64,000 bases of DNA, from contig NZ_RJJY01000001.1 of assembly GCF_003751085.1 (NCBI RefSeq), positions 2,914,001 through 2,978,000 of the forward strand, given 5' to 3'. Positions 417-16,600 of the stretch are shown piece after piece; within the stretch, counting starts at the first letter, position 1; each line of letters begins with the position of its first letter. This DNA comes from Micromonospora sp. Llam0 (lineage in GTDB: Bacteria > Actinomycetota > Actinomycetes > Mycobacteriales > Micromonosporaceae). The position numbers and the translations under genes are program-made. Below the pieces are notes generated by a model. That model was not told the DNA's origin. It ran no database searches and saw only the letters and a list, made by a program, of their open reading frames with translations.

Positions 417-1337
417 TCAGGCGGTTGGACCGGCTGGTCCGGACAGGGCCCGCTGGATCAGCGTGACCTCGTCGGCGCCGCTGTCCGGGACGATGAAGTC
501 GTCGAGCCGGCAGATCTCGTCGATCGACGCGCTGATGTCGTCGGGCGAGACCGGCTCGGCCCCGCCGTACCAGCCGGGGGTGACGCCGAGGAAGATCCGC
601 CCGACCCGGCCGCCGCCGACGGTGAGGATGTGCCGGTTGAGCTGGCACTGCCCGGAGGCGAGGTAGGTCGCCACCGCGGCGACGTGCCGGGGGTCGAACC
701 GGTCGGTCAGCTCACCGAGAAGATTCTCGGTCATCCGGGTCGCGGCGGTCGGTGCGATCGCGTTCACCAGGATGCCCCGGCGGGCTCCTTCCAGCGCGAG
801 CACGTTCATCAGCCCGATCAGGCCGGCCTTGGCGGCCCCGTAGTTGGCCTGGCCGAAGTTGCCGAACAGCCCGGACGAGGAGCTGGTCAGCACGATCCGC
901 CCGTACCCCCGCTCGGCCATCTGCCGCCACGCGGGCCGCAGCACATGGAACGCACCGGCGAGGTGCACGTCGAGGACCGCGGTGACGTCCTCCTCGCGCA
1001 TCTTGGCCAGCGTGCCGTCCCGCAGGATGCCGGCGTTGTGGATCACCGCGTCGATCCGGCCGTACTCTCCAACGGCCCGGGCGACGAGGTCGGCGCCGCC
1101 GGCGGCGGTGGCGACCGAGTCGGTCGACGCGACCGCGACACCGCCGGCGGCGCGGATCTCCTCGACCACCCGCTGCGCCGCACCGGAGGAACCCGAGCCG
1201 TCCACCGCCCCGCCGAGGTCGTTGACGACGACGCGGGCACCGCGTTCGGCCAGCAGCAGGGCGTGCGCCCGGCCGATCCCGTTGCCGGCGCCGGTGACGA
1301 CGACGACCTGCCCGTCGAGGCGCACCTCGGCGCTCAC
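417..1337 (-). CDS. SDR family oxidoreductase, HSD17B4-like hydroxyacyl-CoA dehydrogenase
   Basis: 306 residues. The NAD(P)-binding motif TGAGNGIG is at about 15-22, NAG at 101-103, and the catalytic Tyr166-x3-Lys170 in NYGAAK follows a serine cluster at 152-155. The reading VVVNDLGG after the Rossmann strand, plus a C-terminal extension of about 60 residues, resembles the (3R)-hydroxyacyl-CoA dehydrogenase domain of peroxisomal multifunctional enzyme 2 (HSD17B4). The likely reaction is NAD-dependent oxidation of a 3-hydroxyacyl-CoA in beta-oxidation. The frame stays open about 40 codons further upstream, but the GTG at 1337 overlaps the thiolase stop by 4 bp (GTGA), which indicates translational coupling, so I chose it. 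Substrate unknown. Confidence 0.88.
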   Translation of the reverse strand: MSAEVRLDGQVVVVTGAGNGIGRAHALLLAERGARVVVNDLGGAVDGSGSSGAAQRVVEEIRAAGGVAVASTDSVATAAGGADLVARAVGEYGRIDAVIHNAGILRDGTLAKMREEDVTAVLDVHLAGAFHVLRPAWRQMAERGYGRIVLTSSSSGLFGNFGQANYGAAKAGLIGLMNVLALEGARRGILVNAIAPTAATRMTENLLGELTDRFDPRHVAAVATYLASGQCQLNRHILTVGGGRVGRIFLGVTPGWYGGAEPVSPDDISASIDEICRLDDFIVPDSGADEVTLIQRALSGPAGPTA

Positions 1338-2518
1338 CGCTGGCTCCCCAGCACCGCGACGAACGCCACGCAGGAACCGGGCTGCCCGCCGAGGTTCTGC
1401 GCGAGAGCCAACCGGGCGTCGGGCACCTGGCGGGCGCCGGCCGCACCCCGCAGCTGGGTGAAGCACTCGAACATCATCCGCAGCCCGGTGGCGCCGATCG
1501 GGTGGCCGAACGACTTGAGACCGCCGTCGGTGTTGACCGGCAACGCGCCGCCGAGGTCGTACCGGCCGTCGAGGATGTCCCGCCAGGCCTTGCCCCGCTC
1601 GGAGAAGCCTAGGTCCTCCATCAGCACCACCTCCGTCGGAGTGAAACAGTCGTGCACCTCGGCCAGCGAGATCTGTGTCGCCGGGTCGGTGACGCCCGCC
1701 TGGTCGTAGGCCTGTCGCGCCGCCCGCACCACCTCCGGGAAGGTGGTGAAGTCGTAGCCGTCGGTGGCCAGGCCCGCGCCCGAGCCGGCGACGAACCCCA
1801 TCCCGCGCAGGAACACCGGCTTGTCGGTGTAGCGGTAGGCGTCCTCGGCGCGGACCAGGATGGCCGCGGCGGCACCGTCGGACACGCCCGAGCAGTCCAG
1901 CACGCCGAGCTGACCGGCGATACGTGGCGCGTTCTCGACGGTCTCGGCGGAGACGGCCTTACGGAACTGGGCGCGTTCGTTCAACGCGCCGTTCGCGTGG
2001 TTCTTCGTCGCGACCCTGGTGAGCGCGTCGCGCATGTCCCGCGCCCCGACGCCGTACGCCTGCTGGTAGGCGGGGGCGAGCAGGGAGAACCCGGCGGGCG
2101 CGGTCCAGTCGACGTCGGTGCCGTCGGCCGGTGGGTAGACGGCGGCCAGACCGGAGTACGCCGAATCCTTCAGCTTCTCCACACCGGTCGCCATGACCAT
2201 GTCGTACGCCCCGGAGGCGACCGCGAACGCCGCGTTGCGCAGCGACTCCGAGCCGGTGGCGCAGTAGTTCTCCACCCGGGTCACCGGCTTGCCGACCAGG
2301 CGCAACGGCCGGGCCAGGGTCTGCCCGGACATCCCGGAGCCCTGGGTGCCCACCCAGAACGCGTCGATGCCGTCGAGGGTGACACCGGACAGCGACCCGA
2401 CGCACTCGTGCACCGCGTCGACCAGCAGATCATCGGCGGAACGGTGCCAGTGGTCACGGAACGGGGTGCAGCCCATCGCGACGATCGCGACGTCGTGGGC
2501 CATCCGCCTACTGGCCAT
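1334..2518 (-). CDS. Thiolase family protein (SCP2/acetyl-CoA acetyltransferase type)
   Basis: 394 residues. The nucleophile is probably Cys86 in NYCATGSE. The family His339 lies in GHPIGATG and the second cysteine is about 383 in GQPGSC. These features fit the SCP2-thiolase branch that performs thiolytic or retro-aldol cleavage of 3-oxoacyl or branched beta-hydroxyacyl-CoAs. Members of this branch often work with a DUF35 protein, and the gene just upstream carries one. The ATG at 2518 lies inside the upstream gene (11-bp overlap) but has an excellent AAGGAGG site 6 nt before it. A second Met at 2503 has no such site. Confidence 0.9.
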   Translation of the reverse strand: MASRRMAHDVAIVAMGCTPFRDHWHRSADDLLVDAVHECVGSLSGVTLDGIDAFWVGTQGSGMSGQTLARPLRLVGKPVTRVENYCATGSESLRNAAFAVASGAYDMVMATGVEKLKDSAYSGLAAVYPPADGTDVDWTAPAGFSLLAPAYQQAYGVGARDMRDALTRVATKNHANGALNERAQFRKAVSAETVENAPRIAGQLGVLDCSGVSDGAAAAILVRAEDAYRYTDKPVFLRGMGFVAGSGAGLATDGYDFTTFPEVVRAARQAYDQAGVTDPATQISLAEVHDCFTPTEVVLMEDLGFSERGKAWRDILDGRYDLGGALPVNTDGGLKSFGHPIGATGLRMMFECFTQLRGAAGARQVPDARLALAQNLGGQPGSCVAFVAVLGSQR

Positions 2519-3908
2519 CGGTGGCCTCCTTCCGTGGCCGGAGTTTCCAGAAGTAGTTTGGGATCGAATCGGTGGTCCACAGCCGCCGGAACGTCGGCGT
2601 CATCGCCATGCCCACCGCCACGTCGCCCGGCGCGACGTCGGTCGCGTACGTGCTGAGCCGGCCGCCGCCGTCGACATCGGCGACGACGACCGCGACCTCC
2701 GGCTCCGGCATGGTGGTCAGGTGGTCCCTGGTCACCGAGACCACCCGGGCGGTCTTGTCCCGCAGCGGGACCGTCGCTGGCGTCTGCCCCGTCGCGGCGG
2801 TGCCGCAGGAGGCGCAGACCTTGGCCGGCGGCGTGGTGACCTTCGCGCAGGCGTCGCACCGGCTGCCCTCCAGCCGGAACTTCCAGCCGGACCGGCGGAA
2901 CATCGGCGGCGACGCCGGTGCCGGCGAAGCGGGCCGGGCCGGGCCCTGCACGTCCAGCAGTCCGCGCCAGCGCAGGTAGCGGCCGTAACCGACGGCTTGC
3001 CGGGCGGCGAGCTGCTGCCGTACGGACGCCCCGCCGCGCGCCGCCCGCACCCCGTCGCCGACCCGCCAGACGAAGGCGTCGGCGCCCTCGGTCGCCGACA
3101 GCAACAGGATCGTCCGGCCGGGCTGCGCCTCGTCGAGCGCGGCGGCGAGCAGCAGTCCGGGGTGGGCGGCGCCGGTGAAGCCGGTGGCCCGTTCGACCTT
3201 CGCGTCGGCTCCCGACCCGCCCAGCGTACGGCGCAGCGCCGCGGCGGCGCGGGCGTTCGACGACGACACGACGACCTCGTCGACGGCGTCCAGGCCGGCG
3301 AGGGTGAAGGCGCGGCGGGCCGCGGCGAGGCCGGCGGTGACGAGGACGTCGGCGGTGAACCGTTCGTCCCAGACACGGTCGTGCCGGTCTCCGGGCAGCC
3401 GCCACCGTTCCAGGATCTCGGTGGTGTGTCCGGCGCGGGCGAGCAGCGTCGCGGCGCTGGTGCCGCCGCCGACGAACGCTGCGGCGCCGTCGCCCTGGGC
3501 GAGCTCGTCCGGTGCCCCCGGGCGGGTGGTCCGCAGGTCGGCCAGCACCGCCGCGGCGCCGGTACACGCGACGAGGTCGAGGGCGGTCGCGCCGCAGCGG
3601 TGTCCGCGCAGATCGACCGCGCCGACGGCCGGATCGAGCCCGAGCGCGGCGTGCACGACCCCGGCCGAGGTCTTCGCCTCGTACGGCGCGCTGGTGGTGG
3701 CGAGCAGCAGCTGCCGACCGGCGGGGTCGTCGGCGGTGAGGTGTCGCATCGCCTCGACGGCCATGGTGACGGTGTCCTCGTCGAAGGCGGCGACGCCGCG
3801 CACCGGTCCGCCCGGCCTGGGTGGTCCGGACCCGTCGAGTCGGTTGTCGTGCAGGGCGTACGCCGGCAGGTGTACCGCGTAGCCGTCGATGCCGGGCTGG
3901 TCAGGCAT
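2508..3908 (-). CDS. Ketoacyl-ACP synthase III/HMG-CoA synthase-like domain fused to DUF35 zinc-ribbon/OB-fold
   Basis: 466 residues in two parts. Residues 1-320 have the thiolase-fold character of KAS III/HMG-CoA synthases, with a candidate nucleophile Cys105 in RCGATAL (compare CYGGTAAL in HMG-CoA synthases). After an Ala/Pro linker (325-335) comes a rubredoxin-like zinc ribbon with Cys351, Cys354, Cys365 and Cys368, then an OB-fold (about 375-440), the DUF35 architecture that binds acyl-CoA for thiolase partners. The thiolase follows directly, so a shared complex is likely. I start at the ATG at 3908 (GAAGGAG 11 nt upstream); a GTG at 3935 overlaps the ATPase stop and would add 9 residues. 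Exact reaction unknown. Confidence 0.85.
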   Translation of the reverse strand: MPDQPGIDGYAVHLPAYALHDNRLDGSGPPRPGGPVRGVAAFDEDTVTMAVEAMRHLTADDPAGRQLLLATTSAPYEAKTSAGVVHAALGLDPAVGAVDLRGHRCGATALDLVACTGAAAVLADLRTTRPGAPDELAQGDGAAAFVGGGTSAATLLARAGHTTEILERWRLPGDRHDRVWDERFTADVLVTAGLAAARRAFTLAGLDAVDEVVVSSSNARAAAALRRTLGGSGADAKVERATGFTGAAHPGLLLAAALDEAQPGRTILLLSATEGADAFVWRVGDGVRAARGGASVRQQLAARQAVGYGRYLRWRGLLDVQGPARPASPAPASPPMFRRSGWKFRLEGSRCDACAKVTTPPAKVCASCGTAATGQTPATVPLRDKTARVVSVTRDHLTTMPEPEVAVVVADVDGGGRLSTYATDVAPGDVAVGMAMTPTFRRLWTTDSIPNYFWKLRPRKEATDGQ

Positions 3909-3925
3909 GGTGTCGCGGTTCTCCT

Positions 3926-4717
3926 TCAACTCCACGAGGGGATGGCGGCGAGCAGTCGTCGGGTGTACTCCTGTTGCGGCTCGTCCAGGACCTGATCGGC
4001 CGCACCCTGTTCGACGACCCGGCCGCCGCTCATCACCGCGATCCGGTCACAGAGGTCGCTGGCGAGCATCAGGTCGTGGGTGACGAAGAGCAGGCCGATG
4101 CCGAGTTCGTCGACCAGGGTGCGGAACAGCCCGACGACCTTGGTCTGGGTGGTGACGTCGAGGGCGGTGGTGCACTCGTCGGCGATCACCAGCGCCGGAC
4201 GGGTGACGACGGCCAGCCCGATGGCGACCCGCTGGCGCAGCCCGCCGGAGAGCTGGTGCGGGTAGCTGCCCAGCACCCGGGCCGGGTCGGTGATGCGCAT
4301 CTGTGCCAGGACCTCCACCGAGCGGCGCTCGACCTCGGCCCGGGTGATGCCCCGGACGTGGCGGCGCAGCACCTCGGCGAGCTGGGTGCCGACCTTCATC
4401 AGCGGGTTCAACGACCGGGAGGCGTCCTGGAAGACCATGCCCACGGCGCTGCCCCGGACCCGGTCGGTGCGGTCCACGCCGGGGGCCACCACCTCGTCGC
4501 CGGCGAGCGTGACCCGGCCCTGTTCGACATCGACGTTGCGTTCGAGCAGCCCGACGACGGTGCGGGCCAGGGTGGTCTTGCCGCTGCCGGACTCGCCGAC
4601 GACGCCGACGATGCGGCCCCGGTCGACGTCGATGTCGACGTCGTCGAGCAGGCGCAGGTCGCCGCCGGCGAGTCGGGCGACGACGGACAGGCCGCAGATG
4701 CTCAGCAGCGCGGTCAT
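3926..4717 (-). CDS. ABC transporter ATP-binding protein (DppD/OppD-like)
   Basis: 263 residues, one nucleotide-binding domain: Walker A GESGSGKTT, signature LSGGLRQR, Walker B ALVIADE and the H-loop FVTHD. The QEYTRRLLAAIP tail is typical of peptide/opine importer ATPases. It pairs with the second ATPase at 6530-7375 to power the importer. The ATG at 4717 overlaps the upstream permease stop by 4 bp (ATGA). The longer open frame reaching 5104 reads through the permease gene and has no coding character there. The transported solute is unknown; the operon context suggests a substrate degraded through CoA esters rather than a peptide. Confidence 0.92.
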   Translation of the reverse strand: MTALLSICGLSVVARLAGGDLRLLDDVDIDVDRGRIVGVVGESGSGKTTLARTVVGLLERNVDVEQGRVTLAGDEVVAPGVDRTDRVRGSAVGMVFQDASRSLNPLMKVGTQLAEVLRRHVRGITRAEVERRSVEVLAQMRITDPARVLGSYPHQLSGGLRQRVAIGLAVVTRPALVIADECTTALDVTTQTKVVGLFRTLVDELGIGLLFVTHDLMLASDLCDRIAVMSGGRVVEQGAADQVLDEPQQEYTRRLLAAIPSWS

Positions 4718-5613: not shown

Positions 5614-6533
5614 CTCACCCTCGGGTCGACGACCGAATGGATCACGTCGACGAGCAGGTTCAGCAGGACGAACGTCAACGCGCCGAAGACGACGATCGCC
5701 TGGACGAGCGGGAAGTCACGGAACTGGATGGCCTGCAGCGCCAGCTGACCGAGGCCGGGCCAGGAGTAGACGTACTCGATCGCGACGGCGCCGGAGAGCA
5801 GGATCCCGGTCTGCAGCACGACGATGGTCAGGATCGGCATCATCGAGTTCTTGAACGCGTGCCGCCACACGACCCGCCGGCCGCGCAGCCCGCGGGCCCG
5901 GGCGGAGTCGATGTACGGCTCGGCCAACGTCTCGCTCATCGACGCCCGGGTGAGCCGGGCGATCTGCGCCATCGGGTACACCGCCATGGTGACGGCGGGA
6001 AGGACCAGATGCTGCGGGGTACCGGACTGTCCGGCGGGCAGCCAGCCGAGGTTCACGGCGAACAGCGCCACCAGCATCATGCCGAACCAGAAAACGGGCA
6101 CCGACTGGCCGAGCAGGGCGACGGTGGAGGCGGCGCGGTCCCACCAGGTGCCCTCCCGGGTCGCGGCCAGCACCCCGAGCGGCACTCCGACGAGTACGGC
6201 GAGTGCCATGCCGGCGGCGACCAGTTGCAGGGTGAACGGCAGTCGGTCGGCGATCAGGGTGGTGTTGGCCTGGTAGAACTGCAGCGACTGACCGAGGTCA
6301 CCGGTGAGGATGCCCGTGAGGTAGTCGAGGTACTGGACGACCAGCGGCAGGTCGAGACCGAGTTCGTGGCGCAGGGCGTCCCGCTGCTCCGGGCTGGCCA
6401 TCGGTCCGAGGATGGCCACGGTCGGATCACCGGAGAGCCGGCCGAGGGCGAACGCCAGGCTCAGCGCGATGAGCAGGGACGCGAGTAGTGACGCCAGGCG
6501 GCTGCCGACCCGTCGGACGGTGCTGGCCTTCAT
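5610..6533 (-). CDS. ABC transporter permease (DppB/OppB-like)
   Basis: 307 residues. The first helix is near 12-30, then comes a soluble loop with the family segments GLDLPLVVQYLDYL and GDLGQS, then five membrane helices. The coupling loop near YIDSARARGLRGRRVVWRHA is the typical DppB EAA region. The frame is open 29 codons further upstream, but the ATG at 6533 forms a 4-bp ATGA overlap with the preceding ATPase stop and removes an uncharacteristic Arg-rich extension. Confidence 0.92.
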   Translation of the reverse strand: MKASTVRRVGSRLASLLASLLIALSLAFALGRLSGDPTVAILGPMASPEQRDALRHELGLDLPLVVQYLDYLTGILTGDLGQSLQFYQANTTLIADRLPFTLQLVAAGMALAVLVGVPLGVLAATREGTWWDRAASTVALLGQSVPVFWFGMMLVALFAVNLGWLPAGQSGTPQHLVLPAVTMAVYPMAQIARLTRASMSETLAEPYIDSARARGLRGRRVVWRHAFKNSMMPILTIVVLQTGILLSGAVAIEYVYSWPGLGQLALQAIQFRDFPLVQAIVVFGALTFVLLNLLVDVIHSVVDPRVR

Positions 6534-7375
6534 CGGCGGGACCTCCAGCGCGCGCCGGGCATCGCGGCGAGCAGTTCGCGGGTGTAGTCGTTGCGGGGGG
6601 TGGCGAAGACCGCCTCGCACGGCCCCGACTCGACCACTCGGCCCTGGTACATGACGTACACGGCGTCGCAGACGGAGCGGACGACGGCGAGGTCGTGGCT
6701 GATCATCAGCAGGGCCGCGCCGGTGCTCTGCCGGATCTGGGCCAGCAGGGTCAGCACGTCGGCCTGCACCGAGACGTCCAGACCGGAGGTCGGTTCGTCC
6801 GCCACGATCAGCCGCGGCCGCATCAGCAGAGCGCGGGCGATGCAGACCCGCTGGGCCTGGCCGCCGGAGAGCTGGTGCGGGTAGCGGTCCAGGATCTGCG
6901 GTGCCAGCCGGACCCGGTCGAGCAGTTCGGTGTCGCTGATCCAGGAGGTGCGCTCGGGTTGCAACCGACGCAGTTCGCGCAGCCCGGAGCGGACCGACTG
7001 CCGGGGGTCGAGCGACCCGTGCGGATCCTGGAAGACCACCTGCGCCTCGGGGCGCAGCCGCCGCAGCCGCGCCCGACTGATCGAGGAGAGCTGGTGCCCG
7101 AGCAGCCGGATGGCCCCGTCGCCACGGGTGCCCAGCCCGGTGGCCGCCATGGCGAGCGTCGTCTTGCCGGACCCCGACTCGCCGACGACGGCGACGCTCT
7201 CGCCGGCGCCGATACGCAGCGACACGTGGTCGACCGCGCGCAGCACCGTCCCGGTGCTCCGGTCGCGGTGCTCGACGACCAGATCGTCGACCACCAGCAC
7301 GGCGGTGTCGGTGTCCGGGGTGCGGGGGTGCCCGGCGAGGTCGCCGGGCACCCCCGTCTGCGCTGCTCCGGTCAT
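6530..7375 (-). CDS. ABC transporter ATP-binding protein (DppF/OppF-like)
   Basis: 281 residues. Walker A GESGSGKTT, Q-loop VFQDPHGSLDPR, signature LSGGQAQR, Walker B LIVADEPTSGLD and ISHDLAVV are all intact. FQDPxxSLxPR is diagnostic of the OppF/DppF branch. The ATG lies 2 bp after the stop of the solute-binding lipoprotein gene, so the two are almost certainly co-transcribed. The first 25 residues are Pro/Thr-rich and may be disordered. Confidence 0.92.
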   Translation of the reverse strand: MTGAAQTGVPGDLAGHPRTPDTDTAVLVVDDLVVEHRDRSTGTVLRAVDHVSLRIGAGESVAVVGESGSGKTTLAMAATGLGTRGDGAIRLLGHQLSSISRARLRRLRPEAQVVFQDPHGSLDPRQSVRSGLRELRRLQPERTSWISDTELLDRVRLAPQILDRYPHQLSGGQAQRVCIARALLMRPRLIVADEPTSGLDVSVQADVLTLLAQIRQSTGAALLMISHDLAVVRSVCDAVYVMYQGRVVESGPCEAVFATPRNDYTRELLAAMPGARWRSRR

Positions 7376-7377
7376 CG

Positions 7378-8901
7378 TCAGCGGGTCGTCTTCGTGAAGT
7401 CCACGGTGTTCAGCGGACCGAACTCGACACCGGTGACACCGGGACCGGTCGCGTAGTTGAAGATCTGCCGGTAGAGCGGCACGTAGCAGTGCTTCTCGAC
7501 CACTCCGATGGTGTTGAGCTGCTCGTAGATCGGTGCGGCCTGCTCGGCGCTGTCCTGTTCGAGCGCCTGCTGGGCGAGTTGGTCGATCTGCGGGTCAGGG
7601 CAGTTGCCGGTCAACGACGCGGTCTTCATGAAGCCGCTGACGAAGTAGTCCGGCACGGCGACGTTGGGCACTCCGGCGAAGATGGCGACACCGGGGACCT
7701 GGCGGCCGATGATCCGCTGAACCAGGGTGCCGTAGTCGAGCGGCTCGTAGCTGACCGTGAAGCCGGCCTGTTCGAGGCTGCCGCCCACCGCCTGGGCGAC
7801 CTCTTCGATGTTGGTGTACTGCGCCGCCGGATAGGTGATCTGTACGGCCGGGGTGGCGTCACCGACGAGTCGCGCGGCCTTCGCCGGGTCGGCGGTGACG
7901 CTGTTCTGCGGTTGCTGGCCGGGCCGGACGTTGAGCAGTCCGGCGTCGGCGGCGGCCTGGCCGTCGAAGATGCCGCTGACGATCGCGTCCCGGTCGATGG
8001 CCAGGGCCGCGGCCTCACGCAGCTGCGGGTCGTCGAACGGCGCCTTGGTCGAGTCGAGGAAGGCGATGATCTTTATGGCGGTCTCGGTGCGTACCACGTC
8101 GACCCCGGCCGCCTCGGCCGCCTGCGCCTGGGCCGGCGGTAGGTCGAAGGAGACGTCGACGGTCCCGCTCTGGATCAACGCGAGCCGCTGCGCGGCCTCG
8201 TTTGCCCAGGTGAAGGTCACACCGTCGTTCGTCGGTTCGTCGCCCCAGTAGTCGGGGTTCTTGGTGACCGAGATGTCGCGACCGGCGTTGGCGCCAGCCC
8301 ACACGTACGGGCCGGTGCCGACCGGGGCCGCGGCGAAGCCTTCGGACCCCTGCTCCTGGTAGTAGGCCGGTGGGACCAGGTAGACCGTGGTGAGCAGGTC
8401 GGGAATGTTGTACTGCGGCGTGCCGGTGGTGACCACGACGGTGGCGTCGTCGGTGGCCTCGATCGAGGTGACGTTGCCGAAGTAGGACTTCAGCGGTGAC
8501 CCCTCGGTGTCGCGGGTGAGCGTGATGGTGTTCGCGACGGCGGCGGCGTCGGCCGCTTCCCCGTTGCTGAAGGTGATGTCGGGGCGGACGGTGAACGTCC
8601 AGGTCGTGGCGTCGGTACGGGTCCAGTTGGTGATGAGACCGGTGTCGGTGGGCGCGAGGTCGTCGCCGGTGTCGATCAGCGGTTCGAGCATCGTCGCCCA
8701 GACGACCTGGGCGGAGCGCGCACCGACGATCGGATCGAGGGTGGCGGGCTGGGCCGCGAGCAGCGCACGGATGACAGTCGGGCCGGACGAACCGGTGTCG
8801 TCGGGTTCGGTGCCACCGCAGGCGGTCAGGCCGACGCTGGCGACAGTGATGGCGGCGGCGGCCACGAGGGGCCGCCGGGAACGCAGGATTTTCATGATCA
8901 T
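7378..8901 (-). CDS. ABC transporter substrate-binding lipoprotein (SBP_bac_5, peptide/opine type)
   Basis: 507 residues. A lipoprotein signal (Arg-rich start, hydrophobic core, lipobox LTAC with lipidated Cys28) precedes a family-5 binding-protein body that includes the N-terminal signature region with DLAPTDTGLI. It captures the solute outside the membrane for the importer encoded just downstream. The ATG at 8901 has AAGGA 8 nt upstream; a second ATG two codons later is less well spaced. The promoter at 8969-8997 contains one of the TetR-type operators, so uptake and degradation are probably induced together. Confidence 0.93.
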   Translation of the reverse strand: MIMKILRSRRPLVAAAAITVASVGLTACGGTEPDDTGSSGPTVIRALLAAQPATLDPIVGARSAQVVWATMLEPLIDTGDDLAPTDTGLITNWTRTDATTWTFTVRPDITFSNGEAADAAAVANTITLTRDTEGSPLKSYFGNVTSIEATDDATVVVTTGTPQYNIPDLLTTVYLVPPAYYQEQGSEGFAAAPVGTGPYVWAGANAGRDISVTKNPDYWGDEPTNDGVTFTWANEAAQRLALIQSGTVDVSFDLPPAQAQAAEAAGVDVVRTETAIKIIAFLDSTKAPFDDPQLREAAALAIDRDAIVSGIFDGQAAADAGLLNVRPGQQPQNSVTADPAKAARLVGDATPAVQITYPAAQYTNIEEVAQAVGGSLEQAGFTVSYEPLDYGTLVQRIIGRQVPGVAIFAGVPNVAVPDYFVSGFMKTASLTGNCPDPQIDQLAQQALEQDSAEQAAPIYEQLNTIGVVEKHCYVPLYRQIFNYATGPGVTGVEFGPLNTVDFTKTTR

Positions 8902-8968
8902 CAGGGGTGTCCTTCACAGCGATGGACCCGTTCACGTCGCCGCGTTGCGCGCCGGTGACGCTCGCCAC

Positions 8969-8997
8969 AAAGTACCGACCAGCCGGTATCAAGTCAA
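8969..8997 (-). promoter_or_regulatory. Promoter of the leftward importer/catabolic operon
   Basis: On the minus strand, -35 TTGACT (8992-8997) and -10 TACTTT (8969-8974) are separated by exactly 17 bp. The 20-bp TetR-type palindrome fills the spacer. Start of transcription is expected near 8962, giving a leader of about 60 nt. The -10 is weak, so the call leans on geometry shared with the promoter at 9059-9087. Confidence 0.6.
8971..8990. promoter_or_regulatory. TetR-type operator, site 1
   Basis: Imperfect 20-bp palindrome AGTACCGACCAGCCGGTATC. It matches 16 of 20 positions of the ideal palindrome inferred from the four sites in this region. It sits between the -35 and -10 of the operon starting at 8901, where a bound repressor would block RNA polymerase. 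The candidate binder is the TetR protein at 12968-13603. Confidence 0.6.
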
Positions 8998-9058
8998 CGG
9001 TTCAAGCAGGTATCTCGACTATGACATTCGCGTGACAAAGGCCAGCCAGCCAGCGGCG

Positions 9059-9087
9059 TTGTGAACATACCGACCGGTATGTATGAT
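9059..9087 (+). promoter_or_regulatory. Promoter of the crotonase operon, probably giving a leaderless mRNA
   Basis: -35 TTGTGA (9059-9064), a 17-bp spacer, and -10 TATGAT (9082-9087). The expected start point, 7 nt later, falls on the GTG at 9094. No ribosome-binding site is visible before that GTG, which fits leaderless translation, common in actinobacteria. Confidence 0.65.
9066..9085. promoter_or_regulatory. TetR-type operator, site 2
   Basis: CATACCGACCGGTATGTATG. Its first 16 bp form an inverted repeat of two perfect 7-bp arms (CATACCG and CGGTATG) around a 2-bp centre. It occupies the promoter spacer and overlaps the -10 by 4 bp, the same offset as site 1. Confidence 0.65.
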
Positions 9088-9093
9088 ACCCCG

Positions 9094-9831
9094 GTGGCCC
9101 CTACCCTCACCCCTCGGCACGACGGACGCCTCATCCGGGTGCGCTACGACAACGCGGCCCGCGGCAACTGCTTCGACGACACCGCGCTGCATGAACTCGT
9201 CCACGCGCTGGAGACCGCTGCGGCCATCGACAGCTGCGCGGTCGTCGAGCTCGAGATGGCCGGCCGGAACTTCTGCGGTGGCTGGGACACCACGGCGTTC
9301 ACCGAGCTGGCCGGCAGCACGCCGGAGACGGTGGCGGACAGCCTGCGCGCCAGCGACGCCGCACTGCGGCGGATCCGGCGACTCCCGGTGCCGGTGGTCG
9401 CCGCGGTACGGGGCCGGGTGATCGGCTTCGGCGCCGGCCTGCTCGACGCCGTGCACCTGCCGATCGCCGCGACCAGTGCCCGCCTGTCGTTACCCGAGGC
9501 CCGGTTCGGTTTCGCCCCCGCCGGAGTCGGCCACGCGATCGCCCGGGCGCTACCCCGCCCGCAGGCCTACCACCTGCTGACCGGGGCCACGACCGCGTCC
9601 GCCGATCAGATGCTCGCCTGGGGGTTGGTCGCCGAGGTAGTCGCCGACGACGACCTCGACCGCGCGGCCGAGGCTCTGGTCGAGACGCTGCTCGCCGTAC
9701 CCGGCCACACCCTGCGAGCGGTCGTCGAGGTCGTCGAGTCGAGCCGGGCCACCGGACGGCCCGATCACGCCTACGACGTCTCGGCGCGCACCATCGTCGC
9801 CGGTGTCGCCGCACGCGGAGCGAACCGATGA
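9094..9831 (+). CDS. Crotonase-fold enoyl-CoA hydratase/isomerase family protein
   Basis: 245 residues from the GTG at 9094. Crotonase features are present: the oxyanion-hole region RNFCGGWD (58-65), the segment RGRVIGFGAGLL (106-117), and LPEARFGFAPAGVGHAIAR. Aligned by eye with rat enoyl-CoA hydratase, Glu135 matches catalytic Glu164, but the Glu144 position is Gly115. A standard hydratase mechanism is therefore doubtful; an isomerase, lyase or C-C hydrolase role is possible. Upstream GTG (9061) and ATG (9079) codons lie inside the promoter and operator, so I prefer the later start. The next gene overlaps by ATGA. Confidence 0.82.
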   Translation: MAPTLTPRHDGRLIRVRYDNAARGNCFDDTALHELVHALETAAAIDSCAVVELEMAGRNFCGGWDTTAFTELAGSTPETVADSLRASDAALRRIRRLPVPVVAAVRGRVIGFGAGLLDAVHLPIAATSARLSLPEARFGFAPAGVGHAIARALPRPQAYHLLTGATTASADQMLAWGLVAEVVADDDLDRAAEALVETLLAVPGHTLRAVVEVVESSRATGRPDHAYDVSARTIVAGVAARGANR

Positions 9832-10637
9832 GCGGTCGGTTCCAGGCTGGCGAGGCCGTCTGGGTGGAGCTGGCCACCCCCGATCCGGACAAGGTCGAAC
9901 CGTTCTACCGCGCGTTACTCGGCTGGACGGTACGCGCCGAACGGCTCGGTGCCACCACCTACCGGATGTGTGGCATCGACGGACGCGACGTGGCCGGCAT
10001 CTCCGACGCCGCCGCGCTGCACGCCGGTCGGCCCCGGGGCTGGATCGTCTACTTCGCCGTCGACGACGTCAGCCGCAGCGCCTCCCGGGCGGTCGAGCTC
10101 GGCGGCGAGCTGGTCACCCGGCCGCGGTATCTGCCGGCCGCCGGCACCGGCGCCGTCGTCATCGACCCGTTCGGCGCCGCGTTCGGTCTCTACCAGGGCG
10201 AGTCACGCACCGGCGTGCAGCTGCTCAACTCGGCCGGCGCACTGTGCTGGAACGAATTGAACACCGGGGAGCCCGCCGCGTCGGTGAGCTACTACCGGTC
10301 CCTGTTCGGCTACACCACCCGGCGGACGACAGACACGCCTACCGCCCGCCCGTACACCCTGCTGATGCTCGGCGACGTCGCGGTCGCTGGCGTGCTGGCA
10401 CTCGACAACGAATGGCCGAACCTCATCCCGGCGAAGTGGATCACCTACTTCGCCGTGGACTCCCTGGACGACGCGCTGCGGCGGGTCTGCGCGCTCGGCG
10501 GGACGCCGACCGTCGGCCCGGTCCAGAGCCCGTACGGACGTCTTCACCTGGTGAAGGATCCCGGCGGCCATTCACTCTGCCTCATCCAGCTCGACGGCGG
10601 CCTGCGCCCCGGGCACGACTCCTCCCCCAGGCGGTGA
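9828..10637 (+). CDS. Two-domain VOC (glyoxalase/dioxygenase-fold) protein
   Basis: 269 residues with two tandem VOC modules. The first is about 8-125 (WVELATPDPDKVEPFYRALL to IDPFGAAFGLYQ). The second is about 135-260 (CWNELNTGEPAASVSYYRSL to KDPGGHSLCLIQ). The paired WxEL-x-T-xD/E-xxxxxxFY starts resemble the hydroxylase-like VOC proteins of actinomycetes. The typical first-position metal His is not obvious in either half, so metal dependence is uncertain. It is coupled to the crotonase by an ATGA overlap and followed 7 bp later by the flavin reductase. Confidence 0.85.
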   Translation: MSGRFQAGEAVWVELATPDPDKVEPFYRALLGWTVRAERLGATTYRMCGIDGRDVAGISDAAALHAGRPRGWIVYFAVDDVSRSASRAVELGGELVTRPRYLPAAGTGAVVIDPFGAAFGLYQGESRTGVQLLNSAGALCWNELNTGEPAASVSYYRSLFGYTTRRTTDTPTARPYTLLMLGDVAVAGVLALDNEWPNLIPAKWITYFAVDSLDDALRRVCALGGTPTVGPVQSPYGRLHLVKDPGGHSLCLIQLDGGLRPGHDSSPRR

Positions 10638-10644
10638 CCTCCCG

Positions 10645-11160
10645 ATGACGGCCGAGCCACTGTTCGACTCGACGGAGTTCCGTCAGGTGTGTGGCCACTT
10701 CCCCACCGGCGTCACCGCGGTCACCGCGATCACCGCCCAGGGGGGCGTCGCCGCGCTGACCGTGAACTCGTTCACCTCGGTCTCGCTGCAGCCGGCGAAG
10801 GTGCTGTTCTGTGTGACCAGCTCCTCGTCCAGCTTCCCGACACTGGTCGGATCCGAACGGATCGCCATCCACATCCTCAGCCGGGACCAGGAGGACGTGG
10901 CGCGCCGGTTCGCCACGTCCGGGCTGACCGGCGCGGAGAAACTCGCCGGGGTGTCCTGGCTGCCCGGTCCGGACGGGGTTCCACTGCTGCCCGGCACACC
11001 GGCGGTGCTCGCCGGACGGCGCGACGAGGTGATCACCAGCGGCGACCACGTCATCTTCCTGCTCGACATCGACCACGTGCATCTGAAGCCGACAAACGTG
11101 CCGGCGCTGTCGTTCTACCGAGGTCGGTTCGTCAGTCCGTCGGCCACCGCGACCGAGTGA
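10645..11160 (+). CDS. Flavin reductase family protein (HpaC/DIM6 type)
   Basis: 171 residues with the flavin-reductase split-barrel pattern: FPTGVTAVTA near the start, the flavin-contact stretch LTVNSFTSVSLQPAKVLFCV, and SFYRGRF at the end. Such proteins use NAD(P)H to make free FMNH2 or FADH2 for a partner monooxygenase. No flavin monooxygenase is evident in the neighbouring genes. The acyl-CoA dehydrogenase nearby keeps its catalytic Glu and looks like a true dehydrogenase, so the partner is probably elsewhere or unrecognised. Confidence 0.88.
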   Translation: MTAEPLFDSTEFRQVCGHFPTGVTAVTAITAQGGVAALTVNSFTSVSLQPAKVLFCVTSSSSSFPTLVGSERIAIHILSRDQEDVARRFATSGLTGAEKLAGVSWLPGPDGVPLLPGTPAVLAGRRDEVITSGDHVIFLLDIDHVHLKPTNVPALSFYRGRFVSPSATATE

Positions 11161-11221
11161 GAGTGGGCAGGCCCGCGATCGTCGACCGCCGACGCGTGCC
11201 GGTAGCGCCGGCCGACGTGGA

Positions 11222-11707
11222 TCAGCTGTAGTACCGGAACAGGATCTCGGCCACGCAGCAGGGGGTCGACCGGTCGGCGAACTCGACCGTCACCGAAGCC
11301 TTGGCCTGCACGCCGTCCCCGGTACCGGGGACGGCGGCGATCGGCTGGGCCGACACCAGCGTCGCGGTGCCCTGGATCGGCACACCGGGCGGCAACGGCC
11401 TGACGAACCGGACCCGGTCCAGTCCGTAGTTGACGCCCACGGAGAAGGTCTGCACCTCGAGGATGTCCGCGAGCAGGCGCGGGACGAGCGCCAGGGTCAG
11501 GAATCCGTGCACGACGGTGGTGCCGAACGGGCCGGACCGCGCCCGCTCGACGTCGACGTGGATCCACTGGTGGTCGCCGGTGACGTCGGCGAACTGGTCG
11601 ATCTGCCGCTGGGTCACCACCTGCGGTGCGCTGGCCCCCAGCTCCGTGCCGACCAGGTCGAGCAGGTCACCCGGGCTGTGCACGATCGTCCGTGATGCGG
11701 TTCGCAT
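11222..11707 (-). CDS. MaoC-family enoyl-CoA hydratase (hotdog fold)
   Basis: 161 residues. The hydratase-2 motif D-x4-H appears as DHQWIH, followed by GPFGTTVVHGFLTLAL, the standard MaoC core. The expected reaction is hydration of a trans-2-enoyl-CoA to the (3R)-hydroxyacyl-CoA, which would feed an HSD17B4-like SDR such as the one at 417-1337. The ATG at 11707 is preceded by GGAG at 5-nt spacing; the ATG-like start at 11734 lacks one. It diverges from the acyl-CoA dehydrogenase, with operator site 3 between them. It closely resembles the MaoC protein at 31810-32262. Confidence 0.9.
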   Translation of the reverse strand: MRTASRTIVHSPGDLLDLVGTELGASAPQVVTQRQIDQFADVTGDHQWIHVDVERARSGPFGTTVVHGFLTLALVPRLLADILEVQTFSVGVNYGLDRVRFVRPLPPGVPIQGTATLVSAQPIAAVPGTGDGVQAKASVTVEFADRSTPCCVAEILFRYYS

Positions 11708-11747
11708 AGTCACTCCAGTTGGCGAACGGGCCATCGGCGGCCTTCTT

Positions 11748-11767
11748 CATTCCGACCGGATGGTATC
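11748..11767. promoter_or_regulatory. TetR-type operator, site 3
   Basis: CATTCCGACCGGATGGTATC, 16 of 20 matches to the inferred ideal palindrome. The overlapping hexamer TATCAT (11764-11769) has the same offset as the -10 at sites 1 and 2 and would drive the acyl-CoA dehydrogenase gene. The expected -35 position (11741-11746) is poor. The site could also control the divergent MaoC gene. Confidence 0.55.
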
Positions 11768-11800
11768 ATCGGTTTCCGGGTCGCTGAGCAGGGAGGTTCC

Positions 11801-12952
11801 GTGGTGTTCGAGGCGTACCAGTTGCCCGAGGAGCACGCAGCAGTGCGGCAGGCCGTACGACAGGTGTGCGACGACAGGGTCGCGCCGCACGCGGCGGCCG
11901 CCGACGAGAACGCCGAGTTTCCGCAGGCCTCCTACGACGCGCTGCGCGCCGCCGACTTCCACGCCCCGCACATCCCCGTCGAGTACGGCGGCGCCGGCGC
12001 GGACGCGCTCGCCACCGCGATCGTCATCGAGGAAGTGGCGCGGGCCTGCGCCACCTCGTCACTGATCCCGGCCGGCAACAAGCTCGGCACCATGCCGCTG
12101 CTGCTCGCCGCCGGCGAGCACCTCAAGCAGCGATACCTACCGCCGGTCGCCCGGGGCGAGGCGATGTTCTCGTACTGCCTGTCCGAACCCGATGCCGGCA
12201 GCGACGCGGCCGGCATGCGGACCCGCGCCGAACGCGACGGCGACTCCTGGGTGCTCAACGGGGTCAAGCGCTGGATCACCAATGCCGGCCTGAGCGAGTA
12301 CTACACGGTCTTCGCCGTCACCGACCCGGCGGCACGCTCGCGCGGCATCTCCGCCTTCGTGGTGGAGAGGTCCGACCCCGGCGTCAGCTTCGGCGCGCCG
12401 GAGCGCAAGCTCGGCATCAAGGGATCCCCGACCCGCGAGGTGTACCTCGACAACGTGCGCGTCCCGGCGGACCGGGTCATCGGTACGCCGGGAACCGGCT
12501 TCGCGACGGCGATGCGGACGCTGGACCACACCCGCGTCACCATCGCCGCTCAGGCCCTGGGCATCGCCCAGGGCGCGCTGGACTACGCCCTGGGTTACGT
12601 ACGGCAACGACAGCAGTTCGGCCGGGCCATCGCCGACTTCCAGGGCATCCAGTTCCTCCTCGCGGACATGGGCATGACCCTGGAGGCGGCACGGCAGCTC
12701 ACCTACGCGGCCGCCGGCCGGTCCGAGCGGGGCGAGCCGGACCTGACCTACTTCGGCGCGGCAGCCAAGTGCTTCGCTTCCGACGCGGCGATGAAGATCA
12801 CCACCGACGCCGTCCAACTACTCGGCGGCTACGGGTACACCCGTGACTTTCCGGTGGAGCGGATGATGCGCGACGCCAAGATCACCCAGATCTACGAGGG
12901 CACCAACCAGGTGCAACGTGTCGTCATGGCCCGCCAACTGCTCGCCGGCTGA
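11801..12952 (+). CDS. Acyl-CoA dehydrogenase
   Basis: 383 residues, normal length. FAD and substrate motifs are intact: FSYCLSEPDAGSDAAG, KRWITNAG, and the C-terminal YGYTRDFPVERMMRDAKITQ followed by IYEGTNQVQR, whose Glu is the usual catalytic base of short/medium-chain enzymes. It introduces the 2,3 double bond into an acyl-CoA and passes electrons to ETF. The GTG at 11801 has GGGAGG 4 nt upstream; a second GTG directly follows it, so the start could be one codon later. Confidence 0.93.
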   Translation: MVFEAYQLPEEHAAVRQAVRQVCDDRVAPHAAAADENAEFPQASYDALRAADFHAPHIPVEYGGAGADALATAIVIEEVARACATSSLIPAGNKLGTMPLLLAAGEHLKQRYLPPVARGEAMFSYCLSEPDAGSDAAGMRTRAERDGDSWVLNGVKRWITNAGLSEYYTVFAVTDPAARSRGISAFVVERSDPGVSFGAPERKLGIKGSPTREVYLDNVRVPADRVIGTPGTGFATAMRTLDHTRVTIAAQALGIAQGALDYALGYVRQRQQFGRAIADFQGIQFLLADMGMTLEAARQLTYAAAGRSERGEPDLTYFGAAAKCFASDAAMKITTDAVQLLGGYGYTRDFPVERMMRDAKITQIYEGTNQVQRVVMARQLLAG

Positions 12953-12967
12953 CCGGCCCCGCCCGGT

Positions 12968-13603
12968 TCAGCGGAGACCGTCGAGCACCATCGCGCTGAA
13001 CTGGCGCGCCACCTCGTCGATGCTGAGCGGACCGTCGACGTTGAGCCACTGGTAGGCCCAGGCACACATGCCGACCAGCCCGAAGGTGACGATCCGCGGG
13101 TCCATGTCCGCGCGGAAGACGCCACGGGCGATACCGTCGGAGATCATGCCGGCGAAGGCCGCCTCCACCGCGTCACGCTTGCGCGTCACCTCGGCGAACA
13201 TGTCTCCCGCGAGGTACCGCCGCTCCTGGTAGAAGATCGTCACGTGTGCCCGGTACTCGGCCACGCTGGTCAGGCTGAACCGGATGAGCTCCGCCACCCG
13301 TACCGTCGGGTCGTCGCTGCCGGACTCGATCTGCTGGATCGCGGCCAGCTGCGCCTCCAGGTACTCCTCCTGGATGTGCCGCAGCAGGTCGTCCTTGCTC
13401 TCGAAGTGGTGGTAGAAGGCACCCTTGGTCAGCCCGGCCTGGTCGGCGATCTCCTGCACCGACGTCCGGTCGAAACCCCGACGCCCGAACAGTTCCAGCG
13501 CGCTGGCGATCAACGACTTGCGGGTGTTCTCCGGGTCGTATCCGTCGGCCCAGCGTTGCCTGCGCCGGGTCGCCGCCGGGCGGTTGGACGTCGCACGAGC
13601 CAT
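12968..13603 (-). CDS. TetR/AcrR-family transcriptional regulator, probable controller of the local acyl-CoA regulon
   Basis: 211 residues. The N-terminal helix-turn-helix is textbook: LIASALELFGRRGFDRTSVQ, then EIADQAGLTKGAFYHHFESK at about 50-70. The C-terminal ligand-binding part resembles regulators of fatty-acid and sterol catabolism such as KstR2/FadR types, which usually respond to acyl-CoAs. The ATG at 13603 has GGAGG 6 nt upstream; the frame stays open far upstream without coding character. An operator-like palindrome in its own upstream region (13644-13663) suggests autoregulation. The gene lies among the units that carry the same palindrome. Confidence 0.9.
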   Translation of the reverse strand: MARATSNRPAATRRRQRWADGYDPENTRKSLIASALELFGRRGFDRTSVQEIADQAGLTKGAFYHHFESKDDLLRHIQEEYLEAQLAAIQQIESGSDDPTVRVAELIRFSLTSVAEYRAHVTIFYQERRYLAGDMFAEVTRKRDAVEAAFAGMISDGIARGVFRADMDPRIVTFGLVGMCAWAYQWLNVDGPLSIDEVARQFSAMVLDGLR

Positions 13604-13641
13604 CGGTGGCCTCCGCTTCCCGCTCCACTCGGAGCCCGACA

Positions 13642-13663
13642 ATCCTACCGCCCGGTCGGAAGG
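13642..13663 (-). promoter_or_regulatory. TetR-type operator, site 4, with overlapping -10 of the regulator gene
   Basis: Read on the minus strand, CCTTCCGACCGGGCGGTAGG (13644-13663) shares the CCGACCGG core with sites 2 and 3 and matches 14 of 20 ideal positions. The -10-like TAGGAT (13642-13647) overlaps it at the same offset as the other three sites. No convincing -35 is present. TetR autoregulation is the simplest reading. Confidence 0.5.
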
Positions 13664-13670
13664 TTCGCTG

Positions 13671-16600
13671 TCACCGCCCCTGCCGCAGCCAGGATTCGAT
13701 CGTGGCGATGATCCGCGGGCGCAGCTCGGCGGCGCCGATGACGGCGTCCACCGAGCCGACCTCCACGGCGCGCTGGATGTCGTGGATCCGGTCGAACTCG
13801 GTGGCCACCTCGCCCAGCTTCTCCGCCCGCACCGACGACCGCAGCTCGTCGAGCTCAGCCGCCAACGCGGCACGATCGGTGCCGGCCGCGGCGGCCGCCC
13901 GGGCCTCCAGGTCCCGGATCCGCGGGTCGCGTGCGGTACGGGAATCCACGTCACCGGAGAACACCACGGCGGCGGCGGGAGCGCCACCGAGTACCGAGGC
14001 GAACGAACCTTCCAGCGCGAGCACGGTCATGGCGGGGTTCAACGCCTTCGAGAAGACCACGAACGCGCCACCGTGGTACCGCGAGATCACACAGAACACG
14101 ATCGGCCCACGGAAGTTCACGATCGCCCGGCCGATCTCGGCGCCGTACTCCAGCTGCAGCTTGCGCATCGACTCGGGCGAGCCGTCGAAGCCCGACAGAT
14201 TCGCCAGCACCACCAGCGGCCGGTTGCCGCTGGCCGCGTTGATCGCCCGCGCGGCCTTCTTCGACGACTGCGGGAACAGCGTGCCGGCGGTGTAGGTGTC
14301 CGGGCCGTCGGTGGGCGGGAAACCACGCCGCGGCACCGTCCGCGACTCGATGCCCAGCAGGCAGACGGGGATGCCGCCGAGATGCACGTCCTGCACCACG
14401 GCGGTGTCGGCGTCAGCCATGCCCGCCCAGCGTTCCAGCACCGGGTGGTCCTGATCGGCCAGCGCCCGCATCACGGTCCGGATGTCGAACGGCTTCTTGC
14501 GGTCCGGGTTCGCCTCGGCCGAGAAGATCTCCCCGACGGTGGTGAAGTCGCTGCCGGCCAGCGTGTGCGGGAAGGTGGAGACGTCGCGGTCGGTGGGGTC
14601 GGTGGTGACCGCCCGCCGCGGCCCGGTCTCACCCGGTACGACATACGTGTGGTCGTAGTGGGCCAGCAGCACGTCCCGTGCTGCGGTCAGGCTCGGCGCC
14701 CAGTACTGCGCCTGCCCGTTCGGCCCCATCACCCGGTCGTAGCCGCCGATGCCGAAGTTGTCCTCGGCGGACACCCCGCCGGAGAAGTCCAGCGACTGCT
14801 TGCCGGTGAGCACCATCGCCGAGTCCGGCGTCATCACCAGGATGCCCTTGGTGTGCATGAGCATCGTCGCCTCGGCGTTCCAGTACGGCTGCGCGCCGAC
14901 GTTGATGCCCGCGACCACGATGTTGATCTCACCACCGGCCTGGGTGAACTCGACGATCCGTTTGAGCGCGGCGGCCACCCAGTCCATGTTCTCGGTGCCC
15001 GACTCCATCGAGATCCGGGCCCCGGCGGACAACGCGTACCACTCCACCGGCACCCGCATCCGCTCGGCCAGATCCAGGGCCGCGATGATCCGACGGCACT
15101 CCGGCTCGGACAGGGCGCCGAGCGACTTCGTGGGATCGCCGAACAGCACGACCCGGGTGACCCCCTCGGGGTGACGGGCGGTGACCGTGCTGACCACACC
15201 GGCGACGATGGCCGCGCCGTTGCCCCCCTTCGGCCGGTCGACCGGCACCAACGCGTTGCCGTCGTCGAGGTCGTGCTCGACGAAGTCGCCGAGCCGGCCG
15301 GTGAGTTCGTACGGGTACACCGTGTTGCGACTGCTCGCCCGCAGTACCTTCAACCGGTAGTCGTCCAACGGCTCGACCGGCTCGACCGGCGGCTCGCCGA
15401 CGACCAGTTCGGCGCCGCCGGTGGCGTCGAAGGCGATCCGTACGGCCATCTTCGTCAGCTCGCCGGTCGCCCGGTCGCGTTGGCGCCCGATGAACAGGAT
15501 CTCCTCCAGTCCGGCGCCTGCGGTCGTCGGGCGCATCCGCCCGGCGATCATCTCCATCTCCGAGCGGGTGAGGTCGTTCGGCGGCCAGACGTAGATCACG
15601 ATCCGGTTGGTGGTGAAGCGGGTCTTCGACGGTCGGCGCGACTGGGCCCGGCGGATCGAGTCGAGGCAGGCCGCGACGGTGTCCTCGGTGGTCGGCAGCG
15701 ACACCAGGCGTCCATCGTGGTCACGCAGCCGGGTCAGGTCACGTACCTGCGCGAACGCGACGAGACGCTGGTCCGACGGGTTCTCCCGCGCGATGCACTG
15801 AAAGAGGTAGACCTCCTCGTCGAGCGAGGGCAGCCGGGTCAGGTCGAACTTGCCCAGCCGCTCCAACTGCATGCGCTGCGCGATGTACGGGTGCAGACCG
15901 CGCATCAGCCGTTCCTCGACCATCCCCTGGCTCGACGGGCGGAACGTGAAGTGATGGTGCATCACCGCGCCGGCGCGGCCCGCGATGGTGGTGGTCACCC
16001 GACGGACCTGGGGCGGCAGCGGGTGCGCGGCGACGACGTCGAGCAGCGCCGCCGCCATCGCGTCGAAGTCCTCCGGCTGGTTCTCCCAGGCGAGATAGAT
16101 ATCGGCGTCGATGGATTCCCGGCCGTCGGCCAGCTCGGCGAGCCCGTCCAGTGCGGTGCCCAGGGCGTCGATGGCCACGGCGGCGGTGACCACGCTCGAG
16201 TCCGCCCGCTCGGCGACCACGAAGGCGCAGCCGGCGACCTGGTGGGCGTGGACCGCGGTGAGCCCTTTGTTGCCGTAGTACCGGCGGGTCAGCACCTCCA
16301 GCATGACCGCGTTGTCGAGGTGGTCACGGACGATCCGCTGGCCGAGCAGTCGGACCAGCGGTTCGGTGCTGCGGACCATGTCGGCGATGCGCTCGGCGCG
16401 CTCCGGCGTGTCCGGACGGGCGTCCAGGTGACGCAGGTGCGCGCGGACCCGGGCGTAGACGGTGGCCCGGTTGCGGCGCAGCAACGGCTGAGCGAACCAG
16501 GCGAACACCACGCCCCGGGCGAGGTCGGCGATCACCGGGAAGCGGACCTGGGTGGCGGCGACCAGTCGCTCCAGGGCGAGACCGGCGGGCTCGTGCAACG

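Follow-up and report, generated by a model that had tools for sequence, protein, structure and literature searches.

TetR-type operators of a known class at a fixed promoter offset in a CoA-linked catabolic cluster of Micromonospora sp. Llam0

We examined a stretch of 64,000 nucleotides (nt) from Micromonospora sp. Llam0 (NZ_RJJY01000001.1, positions 2,914,001-2,978,000, forward strand), hereafter the window, which belongs to an 8.9 Mb genome (G000). Here a gene for a TetR-family regulator (tetR) stands among genes for an importer, a thiolase-like protein, a crotonase, a MaoC-like hydratase and an acyl-coenzyme A (acyl-CoA) dehydrogenase. A first-pass annotation had described four 20-bp imperfect palindromes at 8971-8990, 9066-9085, 11748-11767 and 13644-13663 and read them as operators of a local regulon; all four were found at these positions. 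Superposition about the axis of symmetry shows them to be versions of one 16-bp palindrome with the consensus TACCGACCGGTCGGTA, from which the sites at 8973-8988, 9068-9083 and 13646-13661 each differ by two mismatches and the site at 11750-11765 by three. The numbers of self-complementary positions in the four 20-mers are 12, 16, 12 and 16 of 20. The palindromes are related as had been proposed. Their core departs from a strict CCGACCGG: the first site reads CCGACCAG. The regulator, the operators and their promoter elements are arranged as follows.

8969..8974, minus strand: -10 hexamer TACTTT of the importer operon
8973..8988, minus strand: operator 1, importer operon promoter, TACCGGCTGGTCGGTA in transcription sense; 16-mer identical in 9 of 9 loci
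8992..8997, minus strand: -35 hexamer TTGACT of the importer operon, 17 bp before the -10
9059..9064, plus strand: -35-like hexamer TTGTGA of the crotonase operon, 17 bp before the -10
9068..9083, plus strand: operator 2 (TACCGACCGGTATGTA), crotonase operon promoter; 16-mer identical in 9 of 9 loci
9082..9087, plus strand: -10 hexamer TATGAT of the crotonase operon
11750..11765, plus strand: operator 3 (TTCCGACCGGATGGTA), between the MaoC gene (minus) and the acyl-CoA dehydrogenase gene (plus)
11764..11769, plus strand: -10 hexamer TATCAT of the acyl-CoA dehydrogenase gene
12968..13603, minus strand: TetR-family regulator (TetR_N and TetR_C_24), 211 amino acids, probable repressor
13642..13647, minus strand: -10 hexamer TAGGAT of tetR
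13646..13661, minus strand: operator 4, tetR promoter, TTCCGACCGGGCGGTA in transcription sense

At all four window promoters, the closing TA of the 16-mer is, in the direction of transcription, the opening TA of the -10 hexamer. The fixed offset is real, the overlap being 2 bp for the 16-mers and 4 bp for the 20-mers as first described. Exactly 17 bp separate TTGACT from TACTTT at the importer promoter, and 17 bp also separate TTGTGA from TATGAT at the crotonase promoter, which places operators 1 and 2 in the spacer between the two promoter elements. As the first-pass annotation had it, the sites precede the importer operon, the crotonase operon, the acyl-CoA dehydrogenase gene and tetR itself. 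Operator 3 is also upstream of the divergent MaoC gene and could serve both genes. The crotonase mRNA is probably leaderless, since a GTG lies 6-7 nt past the -10 in 9 of 9 loci (window 9082-9096). Just downstream of the importer -10, at 8954-8969, we also observed the sequence GGTGA-N6-CCACA, which is close to the CRP consensus TGTGA-N6-TCACA. Its GTGA and CCACA are invariant in eight aligned sequences and its first G varies. This element may represent a second, catabolite-type control of the importer operon.

The set of four proved real but incomplete. Two further operators were detected left of the window (L064, G000:C1:2896001-2915000), for a total of six over about 22 kb. Operator 5 (L064 9852-9867) directly precedes a luciferase-like monooxygenase gene, and operator 6 (L064 13751-13766) is situated between a divergent hydrolase gene and a CoA ligase gene. 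Both recur in 7 of 7 genomes, our own included. We considered that operator 5 might belong to a leaderless promoter with the common -10 offset, and dropped this idea because the upstream GTG is lost in G009.

These operators are conserved well beyond the species. A match to the local TetR at E ≤ 1e-30 was found in 8 of 61 genomes, including its own, the match in G023 being only 34% identical. The first-pass annotation had staked its proposal on conservation upstream of orthologues, and all four operators were found before the same genes in each of the six orthologous clusters that were fetched whole, one of them from another genus. They are all present in Micromonospora radicis (L133), and the tetR operator is present in M. 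haikouensis (L134, cut by the end of the stretch). Virgisporangium ochraceum (L135) possesses the importer, crotonase and tetR operators and a fourth site before another gene: at L135:11147-11162 the operator beside tetR is kept and the acyl-CoA dehydrogenase is gone. Next to this site we noted open reading frames (ORFs) whose translations resemble SnoaL-like and nitroreductase-like proteins. We then compared 36 promoter copies (9 importer, 9 crotonase, 8 dehydrogenase and 10 tetR, leaving out L135:11147, where there is no dehydrogenase). All 36 have TA at the end of the 16-mer and T, a base with a frequency of about 0.15, as the sixth base of the -10, and the bases in between vary. In the gap between the importer and crotonase genes, the operators are identical at 32 of 32 positions in each of eight comparisons, and the 79 bp between operators 1 and 2 fall to 48/79 identity in Virgisporangium. 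The spacing of these two operators is 95 bp in 9 of 12 loci (about nine helical turns), but a looping rule is ruled out by the values of 1052, 987 and 88 bp in two Nocardioides and Actinomadura. In these two Nocardioides (L136 and L137, the latter scanned for sites without mapping of genes) and in Actinomadura (L138), whose TetRs are 53-56% identical to ours, operators were found at the crotonase start as well as upstream of the binding-protein gene. In Conexibacter (L139, TetR 47% identical), operators precede the binding-protein gene, the counterpart of the monooxygenase gene and the hydrolase/ligase pair, and two further operators are present. Finally, the locus of the distant TetR (L063, G023:C3:9000-28900) contains a perfect TACCGACCGGTCGGTA at 7970-7985 and has importer, MaoC, SDR and acyl-CoA dehydrogenase relatives of its own.

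Sites of this kind are rare in random sequence. The window contains three 16-mers within two mismatches of the consensus and five within three, compared to means of 0.025 (maximum 1) and 0.475 (maximum 2) across 40 first-order Markov copies of the window; one of the five (42807) is outside the operator set. A symmetrised matrix was trained on 34 sites taken from other genomes, without G000, G001, G003 and G005, and its background was 400 kb of our own genome in twenty spread stretches. With this orthologue-trained matrix, the four window sites score 24.2, 23.3, 21.6 and 20.7 bits and are exactly the top four in the window, where the best other place reaches 13.4; the best place in the 400 kb reaches 16.6, and operators 5 and 6 score 22.1 and 17.5. 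Many of the training sites are orthologues of the window operators, some of them letter-identical, and these scores therefore speak for the rarity of the sites and not for an independent discovery, which is one reservation to be set against our interpretation. Because of this dependence on orthology, a second matrix was made from 102 sites (45 distinct) near distant TetRs, using L150-L212 alone.

The search was extended to the whole genome, where 11 places lie within two mismatches of the consensus, three of them in the window. A degenerate pattern, drawn after the sites had been seen, is found at seven places, five of them in the cluster, and misses operator 2. Its two off-cluster matches are C1:623250, inside an ORF, and C1:602053, which is outside the ORFs that passed our filter and scores 11.3 with the distant-lineage matrix. 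The 20-mer pattern with the -10 T, allowing three mismatches, was found at 56 places, compared to 36 for its reversed control. We checked 14 off-cluster places (eight within two mismatches and six from the 20-mer pattern scan): 11 of them are under a coding-like ORF and three are not (L046, L049 and L095). Based on the 56 matches against 36 and on these ORFs, we rejected a larger genome-wide regulon, although a distant target is still conceivable. Across genomes, promoter-like 20-mers within two mismatches on both strands number 3-8 in seven cluster genomes, compared to 0-3 for reversed-pattern controls.

The operator class is also frequent near related regulators. We collected 80 TetR-homologue loci (29-90% identity) using peptide patterns that include recognition-helix residues; conservation of the helix among them consequently proves nothing, and many of the loci are close relatives, so that the following counts are not independent. 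The 16-mer was found within two mismatches in the fetched flanks of 63 of the 80 loci, 63 of the 80 have an acyl-CoA dehydrogenase relative, and 55 have both. Between -300 and +60 of tetR, 35 of the 80 loci present the 16-mer within three mismatches, whereas 100 permuted palindromes gave a mean of 0.27 and a maximum of 2. Of 174 strand readings over L136-L212, 73 have T at the position of the last -10 base, compared to an expected frequency of about 0.15.

Several other results weigh against this interpretation. The distant-lineage matrix gives operators 1-4 scores of 24.2, 16.8, 16.9 and 17.1 (window ranks 1, 5, 4 and 2) and lifts only operator 1 above the background: operators 2-4 are level with the best background place, 17.0, which is the score of 42807 and also the best of the 400 kb. 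Operator 5 scores 19.1 with this matrix and operator 6 only 14.0, and the off-cluster places L046 and L049, which have no coding-like ORF, reach 18.6 and 17.9. Operator 5 breaks the offset rule, with AATAAA at the -10 position in 7 of 7 genomes; no clear -35 was seen by eye at operators 3 and 4; and at L135:11147 the hexamer toward the adjoining ORF is TATGAA, in which the T is not kept. Promoter-like 20-mers number 0-5 in eleven other genomes without the cluster (controls 0-4), among them five in G002 (control 4). As for the homologues, 17 of the 80 loci have no site within two mismatches, 42 of 94 sites are more than 300 bp from every gene class searched, and the 102 sites observed within three mismatches in L150-L212 compare to a mean of 10 but a maximum of 62 over 60 permuted palindromes, some of these controls being frequent. 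The first-pass annotation had also taken it as damaging if matches were equally frequent inside genes. This was tested in part and came out mixed: no place in the 400 kb reaches the score of any operator with the orthologue-trained matrix, but single matches within two mismatches do occur in ORFs and the distant-lineage matrix places three operators at about the level of the best background.

With these points considered, we find it probable that the local TetR represses the cluster through the six 16-bp operators and that a CoA thioester of an imported acid releases the repressor. A TetR dimer (or a pair of dimers) would bind the TACCGACCGGTCGGTA-type palindrome, which overlaps the -10 by its last two bases, and the bound repressor would cover the -10 region and block RNA polymerase at the six operators. 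The predicted targets are the importer/thiolase operon, the crotonase operon, the MaoC and acyl-CoA dehydrogenase genes and tetR itself and, left of the window, the luciferase-like monooxygenase operon and the divergent hydrolase/ligase pair. The thioester formed from the imported acid would release TetR, and uptake and degradation would be induced together. Both the position of the operators and the site before the regulator's own gene fit a repressor, and repression by the local TetR appears well supported. The interpretation of the first-pass annotation is upheld in part: the placement of the operators favors a local, autoregulated regulon that would tie uptake to degradation. From the kinship and fold neighbours of the regulator (KstR2, AibR) and from the CoA chemistry of the cluster, we infer an acyl-CoA inducer.

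It is unlikely, though a chance worth reckoning with, that the inducer is instead the free imported compound or another metabolite. The cluster does import a solute, and DarR, whose entry titles name nucleotide ligands, is also a fold neighbour of the local TetR. However, the regulated genes are CoA-linked and the fold neighbours include KstR2, whose effector is the CoA thioester HIP-CoA, and AibR of Myxococcus xanthus (PDB 5k7h/5k7z; 24% identity, fold ranks 13 and 15), a TetR-fold protein with isovaleryl-CoA as effector according to the entry titles. We regard as improbable that one or more TetR paralogues of the same specificity bind the operators, so that the adjacent TetR would not be their sole regulator. 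The presence of the operator class near many TetR homologues, the 71 first-look TetR candidates in the genome and a PaaX-like regulator at the left end of the cluster are compatible with this scenario. Nevertheless, the own genome yielded one match at E ≤ 1e-30 (50 of the 71 candidates scored) and one at E ≤ 1e-60 (all 71 scored). In addition, G002, of the same genus, has neither a TetR match at E ≤ 1e-30 nor a binding-protein match at E ≤ 1e-50 (the latter search being without a positive control), and G004 and G009, whose fetched flanks contain no carboxylase match, retain the tetR operator.

The mode of action might also differ: instead of excluding polymerase, the regulator would be wholly or partly an activator or a QacR-like roadblock that acts once polymerase has bound. 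The sites of PfmR from Thermus thermophilus often cover the start point and a QacR-like mode is suggested for them in PMC7022988; the overlapping repeat of Burkholderia cenocepacia is likened to the QacR operator in PMC2770484; and FasR, a named activator, is a weak NCBIfam match of the local TetR (56.9 bits, cut-off 330). Conversely, operators 1 and 2 are located between the -35 and the -10 and overlap the -10, similarly to the paaA operator, which is needed for negative control and whose mutated repeat raises expression without inducer (PMC2770484). We judge such a mode very improbable. Finally, there is next to no probability that chance similarity or a GC-rich composition mimics the operators. 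Matches at a similar mismatch count do exist elsewhere in the genome, mostly inside ORFs, and the distant-lineage matrix fails to separate operators 2-4. Yet a chance origin is rejected by the Markov windows, by the two sets of permuted palindromes (60 and 100), with the orthologue-trained matrix on the same side, and above all by the footprint across genera.

The cluster that these operators are predicted to control looks like a system for the CoA-dependent breakdown of an imported acid. None of the family calls on its genes names the substrate. The genes in the window, other than tetR, are the following.

417..1337, minus strand: short-chain dehydrogenase
1334..2518, minus strand: thiolase-like protein (PRK06157 equivalog, 574 bits, cut-off of 403 exceeded)
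2508..3935, minus strand: HMG-CoA-synthase-like protein with a C-terminal ChsH2-type Zn-ribbon/OB part
3926-4711 and 6530-7375, minus strand: importer ATPases (Pfam ABC_tran); gene order kept in orthologous clusters
4714-5613 and 5610-6542, minus strand: importer permeases (Pfam BPD_transp_1); gene order kept in orthologous clusters
7378..8901, minus strand: solute-binding component (SBP_bac_5) of a peptide-type ABC importer; its gene opens the importer operon
9094..9831, plus strand: crotonase-family protein, probable start GTG 9094 (longest ORF from 9061)
9828..10637, plus strand: two-domain VOC/glyoxalase-fold protein
10645..11160, plus strand: flavin reductase domain protein
11222..11734, minus strand: MaoC-like hydratase, divergent from the dehydrogenase
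11801..12952, plus strand: acyl-CoA dehydrogenase

The protein at 2508-3935 scores below the cut-offs of the HMGS models, just above that of zf-ChsH2 and below that of OB_ChsH2_C. Its gene adjoins that of the thiolase (1334-2518), and the pair resembles the archaeal thiolase/HMG-CoA synthase/DUF35 complex, here partly fused. The cluster extends left of the window and as a whole includes crotonases, VOC proteins, acyl-CoA dehydrogenases (one weakly PimC-like), four AMP-forming ligases, three luciferase-like monooxygenases, a metallo-hydrolase and the PaaX-like regulator (L064:2015-2722, minus strand; G000:C1:2898015-2898722), which is possibly a second regulator of the cluster. An IS605 OrfB/TnpB-type transposase gene marks the left border (L064:793-2178, minus strand). 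On the other side of tetR, window 13671-19142 (minus strand) encodes a single chain of 1823 amino acids with biotin carboxylase, biotin carrier and carboxyltransferase parts and an ACC_central match, as in large multidomain carboxylases. We tried to include this fused carboxylase in the regulon and rejected it, as no matrix match precedes the gene; its absence from the fetched tetR flanks of G004 and G009 suggests that it is probably outside the regulon.

The local protein is a member of the TetR family (Pfam TetR_N 70.0 bits, cut-off 24; TetR_C_24 103.4 bits, cut-off 26.4), and its AlphaFold model is all-helical (pLDDT 85). We do not claim it as PfmR, PaaR or KstR2. The closest proteins in the fold search are KstR2, PfmR and RHA5900. 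Among 24 NCBIfam matches at E ≤ 0.001, KstR scores 20.2 bits (cut-off 280) and there is no model named KstR2. KstR2, the mycobacterial steroid-ring repressor, represses CoA-linked catabolic genes and its operator differs from the TACCGACCGGTCGGTA type. It is the best fold match (PDB 4w1u/4w97; 28% identity, E 2.8e-23), with ILSGSLYHHF in the recognition helix where the local TetR has LTKGAFYHHF. The best PDB match by sequence is a Thermobifida fusca TetR (PDB 3dcf, E 1.1e-28), which is seventh in the fold list.

The nearest parallels in operator sequence are PfmR and PaaR. PfmR (TTHB023, Thermus thermophilus HB8, PDB 3vpr) has the consensus operator TACCGACCGNTNGGTN, with TTTACCGACCGGTTGG among its genomic sites, and its gene stands first in an operon that also contains acyl-CoA dehydrogenase, MaoC and ligase genes (PMC7022988). 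These sequences nearly equal the window sites. PfmR belongs to another phylum, and its published gene table includes no importer or luciferase-like monooxygenase. PfmR is seventh in the PDB list by sequence (E 1.6e-20) and third in the fold search, with 29% identity and the recognition helix LSKAALYHHF; the local TetR scores KstR2 as well as or above PfmR, by both sequence and fold. PaaR (BCAL0210) of B. cenocepacia recognizes ACCGACCGGTCGGT, located between the predicted -35 and -10 of paaA (PMC2770484). It controls phenylacetate genes; no paaABCDE-type genes were seen among the annotated genes of the present cluster. Within a limited literature set, we found no paper on Micromonospora TetR acyl-CoA dehydrogenase operators; the relevant literature from motif searches consisted of the PfmR and PaaR papers and a review, and two motif variants returned nothing relevant by title.

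For an uncharacterised catabolic cluster, these results offer a testable regulon across several genera. It comprises a single regulator and six predicted operators, of which four share a fixed promoter geometry, and the operator can be used to find the remaining pathway genes and the inducer. A broader interpretation is possible, though somewhat less likely than not: TACCGACC(A/G)GTCGGTA might be an old operator code, read by a single broad lineage of TetR proteins that controls CoA-linked catabolic clusters in Actinomycetota, Thermus and Burkholderia, and the present cluster an undescribed importer-fed pathway found from Micromonosporaceae to Conexibacter, with luciferase-like monooxygenases, several CoA ligases, acyl-CoA dehydrogenases and the HMG-CoA-synthase/ChsH2-type fusion plus thiolase. 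The window operators, as judged from their sequence, are of the same class as the published PfmR and PaaR sites, lying two to three mismatches from TACCGACCGGTCGGTA and overlapping the core promoter, an overlap that is lacking at operator 5. The kind of operator is not new; the arrangement is real, well conserved and of a known kind. The agreement of the operator with the sites in Thermus and Burkholderia suggests that these TetRs kept much the same DNA specificity while their target genes changed.

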